Below are positions 21,411 through 26,293 of a stretch of DNA of 64,000 bases, one piece after another. The DNA is from Alphaproteobacteria bacterium (GTDB lineage Bacteria > Pseudomonadota > Alphaproteobacteria > Thalassobaculales > Thalassobaculaceae). The number at the start of each line of letters is the position of its first letter. Position 1 is the first letter of the stretch. Under the pieces are notes generated by a model that saw nothing but the letters and a program-made list of their open reading frames with translations, was not told the origin of the DNA and did no database searches. The position numbers and the translations under genes are program-made. Location: the NCBI GenBank assembly GCA_024742605.1, contig JANSYC010000007.1, positions 1 through 64,000 of the forward strand, in the 5' to 3' direction.

Positions 21411-24323
21411 CTACTCCGCCGCCTCCTGGTAGGCTTCGATCGGCGGGCAGGTGCAGACCACGTGCCGGTCGCCGTGCACGTTGTCGACCCGGCCGACCGG
21501 CGGCCAGTACTTGGCGGAGGCGTCCATGCCGGCCATCGGAAAGGCTGCCTGGCGTCGCGTGTAGGATCGGTCCCACGCATCCGCCATCAGGTCCTGCGCG
21601 GTATGCGGGGCGTGGCGCAGGGCCGAGGCCTCGGCCGTCATCTCGCCGCGCTCGATCGCCCGGATCTCGTCCCGGATCGCGATCATGGCGTCGGCGAACC
21701 GGTCCAGCTCCTCCTTGCTCTCGCTTTCCGTCGGCTCGATCATCAGGGTGCCCGCGACCGGCCAGCTCATGGTCGGCGCGTGGAAGCCGAAATCCATCAG
21801 CCGTTTGGCGATGTCGTCGACGCTGACGTCGGTGGCGTCCTTCATCGGCCGGGTGTCGATGATGCATTCGTGCGCCACCAGACCGTTCGGCCCGGTGTAC
21901 AGAACCGGGTAATGGTCCCGCAGCCGATAGGCGAGATAGTTGGCGTTCAGGATCGAGGTCTGGCTGGCCTTCTTGAGACCGCTTGCGCCCATCATACGGA
22001 TGTAGGCCCAGCTGATCGGCAGGATTCCGGCGCTTCCGAAAGGGGCGGCCGAGACCGCACCGATCGCGGTCGCGGGCCGGTCGACCCCGTCTTCGTCCAG
22101 ATCGTCGCCGTGACGCGGCAGGAAGGGCAGCAGATGGGCGGCCACGCCGATCGGGCCGACGCCCGGACCGCCGCCGCCATGGGGAATGCAGAAGGTCTTG
22201 TGCAGGTTCATATGGCTCACGTCCGAGCCGAAGGCGCAGGGGCTGCACAGCCCGACCAGTGCGTTGAGATTTGCCCCGTCGGTATAGACCTGGCCGCCAT
22301 GGTCATGGACGATCTGACAGATCTCCCGTACGCGGCGCTCGAAGACGCCGTGGGTCGAGGGGTAGGTGATCATCAGGGCGGCGAGCTTGTCGGAATGCTG
22401 CTCGGCCTTCGCCTTCAGATCGTCCACATCCACATTGCCGTGCGCGTCGCAGGCGACCACCACCACCCGCATGCCGGCCATGGCGGCGGAGGCCGGATTG
22501 GTGCCGTGGGCGGAGGAGGGAATCAGGCAGACGTCCCGATGGGACTCGCCGCGCGACTGATGGTAGGCGCGGATCACCAGCAGCCCCGCGTATTCGCCCT
22601 GTGCCCCGGAATTCGGCTGCAGAGAGACGCCGGCATAACCGGTGGCGGCGGCCAGCATCCGTTCCAGATCGGTGATCATCCGATGGTATCCGGCGGTCTG
22701 ATCCTCCGGAGCGAAGGGATGGATGTTCGCGAACTCCGGCCAGGTGACCGCCATCATCTCCGCCGTCGCGTTCAGCTTCATGGTGCAGGAGCCGAGCGGG
22801 ATCATCGAGCGGTCCAGCGCGATGTCCTTGTCCGACAACCGCCGCAGGTACCGCAGCATCTCGGTTTCGGACCGGTATTTCTCGAAGGTCGGATGGGTCA
22901 GGAACGGGCTGGTCCGGGTTAGAGCCCCCGGAAAGCCGTCGTCGACCGAGGCCTCGATCTCGTCGAAGGTGAATTCGGCGTCCGACCCCTGCCTGAGGCA
23001 GCTCCACAGGGTTTCCACCGTCGCGCGCGTGCTGGTCTCGTCGAACGAAACGCTGACCGCATCCTCGTCCAGCCAGCGCAGATTGATGCCTTCGACCCGG
23101 GCTGCTTCCCAGATCGAACCCGCCCAATGATCCGAAAGGACCGTCACCGTGTCGAAGATATGGGCGCCGTCGACCCGGTAGTTGAAGCGCTTCACCCCTT
23201 CGGCGAACACGGCGGCCAGACGGTGGGTCCGGCGTGCGATCCGCGTCAGTCCCTCGGCTCCGTGATACACGGCGTACATCGAGGCCATCACCGCCAGCAG
23301 GACCTGGGCGGTACAGATATTGGAGGTCGCCTTCTCCCGACGAATGTGCTGCTCACGGGTCTGCAGGGTCAGCCGGTAGGCGGCACGGCCGGTGGCGTCG
23401 ACGGAGACCCCCGCCAGACGGCCGGGCAGGTTGCGCCTGTGCGCATCCAGGGTCGCGAAATAGGCGGCATGCGGACCGCCGAATCCCATCGGCACGCCGA
23501 AGCGCTGGGTGGTTCCCACGGCCACGTCGGCACCCCACTCGCCCGGCGGTGTCAGGAGTGTCAGGGCCAGGAGATCGGCGGCAACGATCACCATCGTATT
23601 GTTGGCCTTCGCCGCCTCGGCGACCTCACGGTAGTCGAGCACCGCCCCCCGTTCTGCCGGGTACTGCAGCAGCATCCCGAAGGCGCTGTCCGGAACCCCA
23701 TTGCGCTCGTCGCCGACCACGATCTCGACGCCGATCGGGGCCGAGCGGGTCCGCAGAACCTCCAGGGTCTGCGGGAACACCTTGTCGGACACGAAGAAGA
23801 CATTGCCCTTGTTCTTCGAGAGCTTGCGGGCGAAGGCCATGGCCTCGGCCGCCGCGGTCGCCTCGTCCAACAGGGAGGCGTTGGCGATCTCGAGTCCGGT
23901 CAGGTCGCAGACCATGGTCTGGAAATTCACCAGGGCTTCCAGCCGCCCCTGGCTGATCTCGGCCTGGTAGGGGGTGTAGGCCGTGTACCAGGCCGGATTT
24001 TCCAGCACGTTCCGCTGAATCACCGGGGGGGTCACGGTCCCGTAGTATCCCTGCCCGATCATCGACGTGGCGACCTTGTTCTCGGATGCCATGACCCGCA
24101 GCTCCGCGAGAACCTGCGCTTCGTCCACCGGCGCATCCAGGGCGAGCGCCCCGCTGAGGCGGATGTCGGAAGGCACGGCCGCGTCCGTCAGCGCATCAAG
24201 GCTCCTCTGTCCGAGGGCGCCGAGCATGTCGGATTCTTCCTGAGCGCTCGGTCCGATATGCCGGCCGACAAAGGAGTCCGTGGCGGTCAACTCGGCTAGG
24301 GTGGGGCGGGTGGATGCGCTCAT
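21411..24323 (-). CDS. gcvP: Glycine dehydrogenase (decarboxylating), P protein
   Basis: 970 residues, the full-length homodimeric type. The N-terminal FVGRHIGPS is family-typical. The pyridoxal-phosphate lysine is in [19 protein letters not shown] (near residue 710), and a Gly-rich stretch [19 protein letters not shown] near residue 95 is conserved. It decarboxylates glycine and passes the aminomethyl group to the lipoyl arm of GcvH. Last gene of the riboswitch-controlled gcvT-gcvH-gcvP operon; the 63-base gap after gcvH has no clear terminator. Confidence 0.98.
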
Positions 24324-24386: not shown

Positions 24387-24758
24387 TCAGGCGCCGGCAT
24401 GCGCCTTGTAGGCGTCCTCGTCCATCAGATCGTCGAGTTGTGAGGGGTCCGACAGCTTGATCTTGTAGAGCCAGCCGGCGCCGGTCGCGTCCTCGTTCAC
24501 GGTCTGGGGCGTGTCTGCCAGTGCCGCATTGGCCTCGGTCACCTCGCCGGAGACCGGTGCGTAGACCTCGCTCGCCGCCTTGACGCTCTCGACCACCGCC
24601 GCGTCGTCCCCCTTGCTCAGGGTGCGGCCCACATCGGGCACCTCGACGAACACGATGTCGCCCAACTGCTCCTGGGCGTGGTTGGTGATGCCGACCGTGC
24701 CGACACCGTCCTCGACGCGGATCCACTCGTGATCTTCGGTGTATTTCGTGGTGCTCAT
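24387..24758 (-). CDS. gcvH: Glycine cleavage system H protein
   Basis: 123 residues. The lipoyl-lysine site is in [18 protein letters not shown] (Lys near residue 61), and the opening [20 protein letters not shown] is the standard H-protein N-terminus. It carries the aminomethyl group between GcvP and GcvT and is reoxidised by a lipoamide dehydrogenase encoded elsewhere. It lies 48 bases after gcvT and 63 before gcvP. Confidence 0.98.
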
Positions 24759-24806: not shown

Positions 24807-25907
24807 TCAGCGTTTGTAGCTCTGGGTGACGAAGGGCAGGGCAACCACCTTGGCCGGATTGGGCTTGCCCCGGATCATCAGGTTGATCTCGGTGCCCTCC
24901 CCAGCATGGTCGATCGTCACATAGCCCATGGCGATCGGTCCCTCGACGGTCGGCCCGAAGCCGCCGGAGGTCACGTGCCCGATGAGTGTTCCGTTGGCAT
25001 CCGCGATGTCGGTGCCTTCCCGGGCGGGCGCACGGCCTTCGGGTCGAAGGCCGACGCGCCGGCGCGCAGCACCGTTGGTCAACTGGTCCAGGATGATGTC
25101 GGCGCCGGGAAAACCGCCCTCCGCCTTGCGGCGTTTGGAGATCGCCCATTCCAGCGCACCCTCGACCGGGGTCGTGCCGGTGTCGATGTCGTGGCCATAG
25201 AGGCAAAGCCCCGCTTCCAGCCGCAGGGAATCGCGCGCGCCCAGGCCGATCACCTCCACATCCGGGTGGGACACCAGCTTGCGGGCGAAGGCTTCCGCCG
25301 CCTCTGCCGGAACCGATATCTCGTAGCCGTCCTCACCGGTATAGCCCGAGCGGGTGACGAAGCACTCGGCGCCGTCGATGGTCATGGCGGCACTGCGCAT
25401 GAAGGTCAGCTCCGCCGCCTCCGGCGCAAGCGCCGACAGTACGGCCTCTGCCGAAGGTCCCTGCAGTGCCAACAGGGCCCGATCGGACAGTTCGGTCATC
25501 TGCCCGCCCAGGACGGCTTCCATGTGAGCCAAGTCGGCGCTCTTGCAGGCCGCGTTCACCACCACGAACAGATGATCGCCCGCATTGGTGACCATCAGAT
25601 CGTCCAGAATGCCGCCGGTCTCGTTGGTGAACAGGGTGTAGCGCATGCGCCCCGGGGTCAGGACCTGAAGATCGCCGGTGGTCAGCGTTTCAAGTTTCTC
25701 GGCGGCGTCGGTCCCGTCGATGCGCAGCTGACCCATATGGGAAACGTCGAACAGACCGGCCTTGGCGCGGGTGTGTTTGTGTTCGCCCAGGACACCCAGA
25801 GGGTACTGCACCGGCATGCTGTAGCCGGCGAATTCCACCATCTTGCCGCCGAGTTCCACATGGAGCGCGTGCAGAGGTGTCTTGAGCAGCTGGGTCGTAT
25901 CGGACAT
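24807..25907 (-). CDS. gcvT: Glycine cleavage system aminomethyltransferase, T protein
   Basis: 366 residues from the ATG at 25907, preceded by GGGGGA four bases away. An in-frame open stretch upstream to 27065 is the riboswitch leader and a neighbouring gene, not coding. Motifs include GLFDVSHMGQLRIDG (near residue 50), the folate/substrate site MRYTLFTNETGGILDDLMV (near 85) and RSGYTGEDGYEISVP (near 183). It releases ammonia and transfers the one-carbon unit to tetrahydrofolate, giving 5,10-methylene-THF. First gene of the operon and the direct target of the tandem glycine riboswitch. Confidence 0.98.
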   Translation of the reverse strand: MSDTTQLLKTPLHALHVELGGKMVEFAGYSMPVQYPLGVLGEHKHTRAKAGLFDVSHMGQLRIDGTDAAEKLETLTTGDLQVLTPGRMRYTLFTNETGGILDDLMVTNAGDHLFVVVNAACKSADLAHMEAVLGGQMTELSDRALLALQGPSAEAVLSALAPEAAELTFMRSAAMTIDGAECFVTRSGYTGEDGYEISVPAEAAEAFARKLVSHPDVEVIGLGARDSLRLEAGLCLYGHDIDTGTTPVEGALEWAISKRRKAEGGFPGADIILDQLTNGAARRRVGLRPEGRAPAREGTDIADANGTLIGHVTSGGFGPTVEGPIAMGYVTIDHAGEGTEINLMIRGKPNPAKVVALPFVTQSYKR

Positions 25908-25975
25908 GTATCCCCCAAGGATCGGGCAGAGAGGTCGTGGTTGCACCGCCAAACCCGAATCGGGTCGACGCGCCC

Positions 25976-26195
25976 CCTCTGTACCGGAACCTGAGAGATT
26001 AGCCGTGATCTCCCTGTCTCGGGTATCACGACGTTCCCCGTCGGTGAGGTAGATCGCGTATCCACGATCCACCTGCTCTCCAGAGGTTACCTCGCCTTGG
26101 GGTTCGGGCGCCTGAGAGTTTCCGGGGCGGTTGCTCCTTCGGCGTCGACCGCGGCGCATCGGTTGCCCGATCCGCCCGTCGCTCTCTCCCCCAAG
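25976..26195 (-). promoter_or_regulatory. Tandem glycine riboswitch (two aptamers)
   Basis: Leader of gcvT. Aptamer 1 spans about 26195-26096: its P1 pairs CTTGGGG (26195-26189) with CCCCAAG (26102-26096), and it contains GGAGAG, CGCCGAAGGAGCAA and ACTCTCAGGC. Aptamer 2 spans about 26086-25976: its P1 pairs CCTCTG (26086-26081) with CAGAGG (25981-25976), and it contains GGAGAG, CACCGACGGGGAA and ATCTCTCAGGT. These are the conserved cores of the glycine class, and the double arrangement before gcvT is classical. The 68 bases from aptamer 2 to the ATG hold no T-run terminator, which suggests control of translation. Confidence 0.96.
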
Positions 26196-26215
26196 AGTCT
26201 TGGGTGATGTGGGTC

Positions 26216-26245
26216 CTAGGATAGTCCTAGCTGCCGGATGTGCAA
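26216..26245 (-). promoter_or_regulatory. Probable gcv operon promoter with overlapping inverted repeat
   Basis: Reading leftward, TTGCAC (26245-26240) and TATCCT (26223-26218) are separated by 16 bases, placing the start about 15 bases before aptamer 1. A perfect inverted repeat CTAGGA-CTA-TCCTAG (26230-26216) covers the -10 and may be an operator. No experimental support. Confidence 0.55.
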
Positions 26246-26293
26246 GAGGGGCACCGCCCGGCCGCGGAATGGCATAGGGAAGGCGGCGGGTTT

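Follow-up and report, generated by a model that had tools for sequence, protein, structure and literature searches.

Which strand of a tandem glycine riboswitch covers the start site of the gene that it controls? The question is raised by the leader of the gcvT gene in an alphaproteobacterial genome of the Thalassobaculaceae family (assembly GCA_024742605.1), located in a 64,000-nt stretch of contig JANSYC010000007.1 (hereafter the window, to which all coordinates refer). An earlier note on this DNA proposed that, without glycine, the 3' strand of the aptamer-1 P1 helix (26102-26095) covers the Shine-Dalgarno segment of gcvT (25920-25913) while an upstream CCCAAG holds the P1 5' strand, and that glycine restores P1. 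Here we report an analysis of this leader and of its relatives, which points to another lid, the 3' strand of aptamer 2.

Leader layout and the kink-turn motif

The tandem aptamers span positions 26201-25969 of the minus strand and are followed by gcvT-gcvH-gcvP (Table 1). Both exceed the Rfam RF00504 gathering score of 32 bits, and the genome has no further RF00504 matches. Their sequence identifies the region as a tandem glycine riboswitch ahead of glycine-cleavage genes. The transcript probably starts near 26210, as read off a promoter-like sequence; a similar TTGCAA...TAT(C/T)CT lies upstream of the leader in three relatives (L019, L020, and L027), and a strict sigma-70 scan detected no promoter.

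A terminator scan found no terminator-like sites, and the mode of control is therefore probably translational. Translational ON control of gcvT is likely, and the earlier description of a gcvT glycine riboswitch that has no visible terminator, acts on translation and probably switches on fits the evidence. Transcription attenuation through a platform terminator could use a short hairpin, ACCCG-ATT-CGGGT followed by TT, at about 25965-25950, but the empty scan and the mostly translational platforms of Pseudomonadota (PMC12452182) make it very unlikely.

The CCCAAG that had been taken for a capture strand is present at 26204-26199 of the minus strand, at the position of a kink-turn leader. The kink-turn layout consists of a C-stem, a three-base loop, and tandem G-A pairs, followed by P1. 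Close relatives carry CC-CAC-GA-C, CC-GAC-GA-C or CC-GAU-GA-C ahead of P1, and the linkers of the 27 listed family sequences read GG(C/T)GAGG (22/27), GGTTAGG (4) or GGTGAGA (1). The window, with A-CC-CAA-GA-C and C-GA-GG-U, has the layout that is common to most of the family as a sequence motif, and by this motif CCCAAG belongs to the leader-linker kink-turn. RNAfold, which is blind to the kink-turn, favours a CCCAAG/CTTGGG hairpin that none of 33 others equals in strength (-9.3 vs a mean of -3.5 kcal/mol). As the strong hairpin is found in one genome only, at the kink-turn leader position, capture of the P1 5' strand by CCCAAG was rejected. In genus g12 (L009, L010, L011, and L014), the leader has AA (CCGUUAACC or CCGAUAACC) and the linker has UA (GGUUAGG) at the G-A positions of the kink-turn, and A-U-like pairing seems to take the place of the canonical tandem G-A pairs.

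Table 1. Features of the gcvT leader and operon in the window
Feature	Position	Strand	Basis or remark
gcvT, aminomethyltransferase, 366 aa	24807..25907	-	NF010093, 558.7 bits (cut-off 459)
gcvH	24387..24758	-	TIGR00527, 148.9 bits (cut-off 115.85)
gcvP	21411..24323	-	TIGR00461, 1451.3 bits (cut-off 859.2)
gcvT Shine-Dalgarno GGGGGA	25911..25916	-	directly upstream of ATG 25907
Probable promoter: -35 TTGCAC 26245-26240, -10 TATCCT 26223-26218, spacer 16 nt	26218..26245	-	read by eye
Glycine aptamer 1, P1 = 26195-26189 with 26102-26096	26090..26201	-	RF00504, 52.1 bits
Glycine aptamer 2, P1 = 26086-26082 with 25980-25976	25969..26089	-	RF00504, 39.9 bits (46 in single-genome search)
Aptamer-2 3' strand (AUCUCUCAGG core, J3/1, P1 3' strand), predicted OFF-state partner of start region	25974..25999	-	duplex energy, shuffle z
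Start-region strand of predicted OFF helix: CCUCUCUG 25934-25927 with aptamer-2 P1 3' strand, CCUUGGGGGAU with aptamer-2 core	25910..25934	-	predicted pair probabilities
CCTTGGGG, complement of 26102-26095	25913..25920	-	present, not conserved
Kink-turn leader strand: C-stem A26205-C26204-C26203, loop CAA 26202-26200, G26199 A26198, C26197, U26196, then P1; includes CCCAAG	26195..26205	-	layout of relatives
Kink-turn linker strand: G26095 C26094 G26093 A26092 G26091 G26090 U26089	26089..26095	-	linker motif in family

The aptamer-1 match and its relatives

The words on which strand exchange with aptamer 1 was built are all present on the minus strand: the aptamer-1 P1 3' strand, CCCCAAGG (26102-26095), is a perfect 8-bp complement of CCTTGGGG (25920-25913), and CTTGGGG stands at 26195-26189. 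The chance level of this match depends on the question asked. With both segments fixed, 300 shuffled start regions yielded no run of 8 (mean 3.95). When the whole leader is open to pairing, 6.8% of the shuffled 20-nt start segments reach at least 8 bp, and complementary 8-mer pairs within the 330-nt leader number 6 vs 1.6 expected. The match exists because a 9-nt direct repeat, CTTGGGGGA, is common to the P1 5' strand (26195-26187) and the Shine-Dalgarno sequence (25919-25911), a feature of this genome only among those compared. A longer perfect match, of 9 bp, links GGATCGGGC in aptamer-1 P2 (26173-26165) with GCCCGATCC just before the Shine-Dalgarno sequence (25927-25919); its predicted probability is near zero.

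Relatives were collected by a family search, with the riboswitch found in 28 of 36 genomes, and by a GcvT-based search that gave 80 further loci; an order-level search added no genomes outside the family. Leaders with both aptamers numbered 52, those with doubtful start codons were excluded, and statistics were computed on 38-39 leaders with distinct aptamer-2/start-site sequences. In the congener G001, gcvT is cut by a contig edge and yields no leader, and the comparison set is thus without a congener leader.

The aptamer-1 P1 3' strand of each leader was compared with the 24 nt upstream of its start codon to find the longest run of perfect pairing. Covariation of these two segments, named as a check in the earlier note, does not appear, and the 8-bp match of the window recurs in 0 of 45 relatives, whose longest runs are 3 bp (17 leaders), 4 bp (20), 5 bp (4) or 6 bp (4), roughly what shuffled sequence gives. 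The P1 helix is conserved with altered bases, as CTTGGGG/CCCCAAG in the window, CTCGGGG/CCCCGAG in L019-L021, L024, L027, and L028, and CCTCAAGG/CCTTGAGG in L003, and the start site does not follow these changes. Composition-controlled z scores for the aptamer-1 P1 3' strand with the start region were -0.35 for all leaders and +0.5 for those outside the family; the excess inside the family was weak (z -1.18, and -0.67 in another computation without the window), and a swap test in the family without the window was not significant (advantage -0.65, p 0.079).

Folding gave a similar picture. Left unconstrained, the ensemble pairs the aptamer-1 strand with the Shine-Dalgarno sequence at a probability of about 0.03. 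To impose this pairing on the free ensemble takes only about 2.2 kcal/mol, and its probability reaches 0.36-0.44 when aptamer 2 is forced closed and aptamer 1 open. Against the perfect match and this modest cost stand the absence of the match in relatives, the low unconstrained probability, the place of CCCAAG in the kink-turn, and the need for the aptamer-1 strand to span all of aptamer 2 and to beat a stronger aptamer-2 helix. For want of conservation, we rejected the aptamer-1 P1 pairing with the Shine-Dalgarno sequence as the switch, and consider a strand exchange with aptamer 1 highly improbable.

Predicted pairing of aptamer 2 with the start region

The Shine-Dalgarno sequence has a stronger predicted partner in aptamer 2. 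The duplex of 25999-25974 with 25934-25910 reaches -30.2 kcal/mol (z -4.7 vs shuffled start regions), and that of the aptamer-1 P1 3' strand with the start region -22.2 kcal/mol (z -3.35). The predicted OFF helix has ten contiguous pairs (A25999-U25910 to G25990-C25919), three more, and then eight between CAGAGGGG (25981-25974) and CCUCUCUG (25934-25927). Its six Shine-Dalgarno pairs (25998-25911 to 25993-25916) have probabilities of 0.90-0.99 over the six transcript ends tested, and in transcripts from the predicted start to 25870 or 25840 the Shine-Dalgarno core is paired 96% with 25999-25972 and 2% with the aptamer-1 strand. Positions 25980-25976 form the 3' side of aptamer-2 P1 and also take part in the OFF helix, so the two pairings are mutually exclusive and closing aptamer 2 excludes the OFF helix.

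The folding outcome is sensitive to the transcript ends, since other pairings compete when the 3' end is set at 25900 (only 22% aptamer-2 pairing of the Shine-Dalgarno core) or the 5' end at 26260 (aptamer-2 P1-strand pairing down to 0.15). With a shorter aptamer-2 strand, the window taken by itself falls short of significance (z -1.03). When the bound state is simulated, the Shine-Dalgarno sequence remains largely paired with the platform (unpaired 0.02-0.37). The folds were computed with RNAfold, which takes no account of glycine, the kink-turn or tertiary contacts. The window also holds CCC at 26023-26021, in the P3b loop of aptamer 2, and GGG at 25975-25973, right after aptamer-2 P1. In ON-type glycine switches, a C tract of the P3b loop forms the P5 pseudoknot with a G tract after aptamer 2, and the two tracts could pair in this way here.

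The sensitivity to ends and a bound-like state in which the Shine-Dalgarno sequence pairs locally or with 25971-25921 would suit a reading with no strand exchange, where aptamer-2 folding alters access to the start site only by way of local structure, a platform hairpin (25973-25948) and a start-site hairpin (25913-25902). This reading leaves unexplained, however, that in relatives the start flank tracks J3/1 of aptamer 2, and we regard it as unlikely. The J3/1 words vary among relatives and the start flank varies along with them, as in CCUCCGACA/UGUCGGAGG (L015), UCUUUCGG/CCGGAGGA (L025), GUCUCCG/CGGAGAC (L052), and CCAAGACAG/CUGUCUUGG (L104), with 7-9 contiguous pairs over or beside the Shine-Dalgarno sequence in each. 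The composition-controlled z for the aptamer-2 strand with the start region averaged -1.78 (n 39; t -6.9, where the rows are related species and t values are guides only), and was -2.1 within the family as well as among other non-Rhodobacterales. In the swap test, native pairs of the family beat swapped ones by -2.13 kcal/mol (p 0.0002; -2.43 without the window); outside the family the aptamer-2 advantage was not significant (p 0.084). In whole-leader folds, the start flank is paired to more than 25% with aptamer 2 in 23 of the 38 leaders, and with aptamer-1 P1 in one.

The z scores and swap results come from shuffle controls and a double-centred swap, which replaced a first swap test confounded by base composition; in the latter, a few leaders had produced p 0.018 for aptamer 1 as well. 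Sliding profiles along the leader showed much noise (z about -0.8) and favoured aptamer 2 only slightly. The equivalent aptamer-1 segment (CUCUCAGG core) is on a par with aptamer 2 inside the family (z -1.92 vs -1.82) because both carry the same anti-Shine-Dalgarno-like core, and outside the family aptamer 2 leads (-2.10 vs -0.73). Rhodobacterales and several other leaders gave no aptamer-2 signal. The Rhodobacterales-like L041, L070, L073, and L102 have a compact aptamer 2 (e.g., CGAAAGGACAG) with no sign of start-site pairing, and probably use another platform.

Proposed mechanism and known glycine switches

Sequence, folding models and the comparison with relatives together make it likely that this leader is a tandem switch that turns on gcvT-gcvH-gcvP translation when glycine is plentiful, with aptamer 2 as the lid of the start site; glycine binding, the ON direction, and the switching itself are the parts that we infer. 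When glycine is scarce, the aptamer-2 3' strand would pair with the start region and bury GGGGGA. With glycine, aptamer 2 would close its P1 and fold its pocket, and the start region would be released because both use the strand of the OFF helix. Aptamer 1, linked through the kink-turn and aptamer contacts, would support the folding of aptamer 2 without covering the start site itself.

We give little credence to a helper role of the aptamer-1 pairing in this genome. Just as doubtful are two lids in this genome alone, with the start covered by an empty aptamer 2, or by the aptamer-1 P1 strand if aptamer 2 is closed and aptamer 1 open, which would amount to an AND gate by base pairing; if true, this would speak to the long-standing debate about the purpose of paired aptamers in glycine riboswitches. 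More generally, eight complementary bases in a single genome may hint at a switch that is not conserved in relatives.

Neisseria gonorrhoeae switches gcvT on through a tandem glycine riboswitch that acts on translation, a design shown by mutation, and without glycine its aptamer 2 helps to form a structure that sequesters the ribosome-binding site (PMC13104608). The window shares with it the two aptamers before gcvT, the translational mode, and, as predicted here, the pairing of an aptamer-2 pocket segment with the start region without glycine. Unlike the putative switch of the window, which has a kink-turn motif, the N. gonorrhoeae switch apparently does without a kink-turn; its aptamer-2 P3a is shortened, and it carries a sibling-sRNA site. 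The Bacillus subtilis switch (PMC5666159) is similar in its two aptamers, leader-linker kink-turn, single expression platform, gcvT target, and expected ON logic, but it has a rho-independent terminator. Both window aptamers match the Rfam RF00504 model, aptamer 2 with a long P3 and the weaker score. The leader is a further case of a known type of tandem switch, which fits both N. gonorrhoeae and the pattern of Pseudomonadota, where translational platforms are favoured and gcvT and gcvH are typical tandem glycine targets (PMC12452182), and covariation extends the aptamer-2 sequestration design, known by mutation from N. gonorrhoeae, to the family of this genome.
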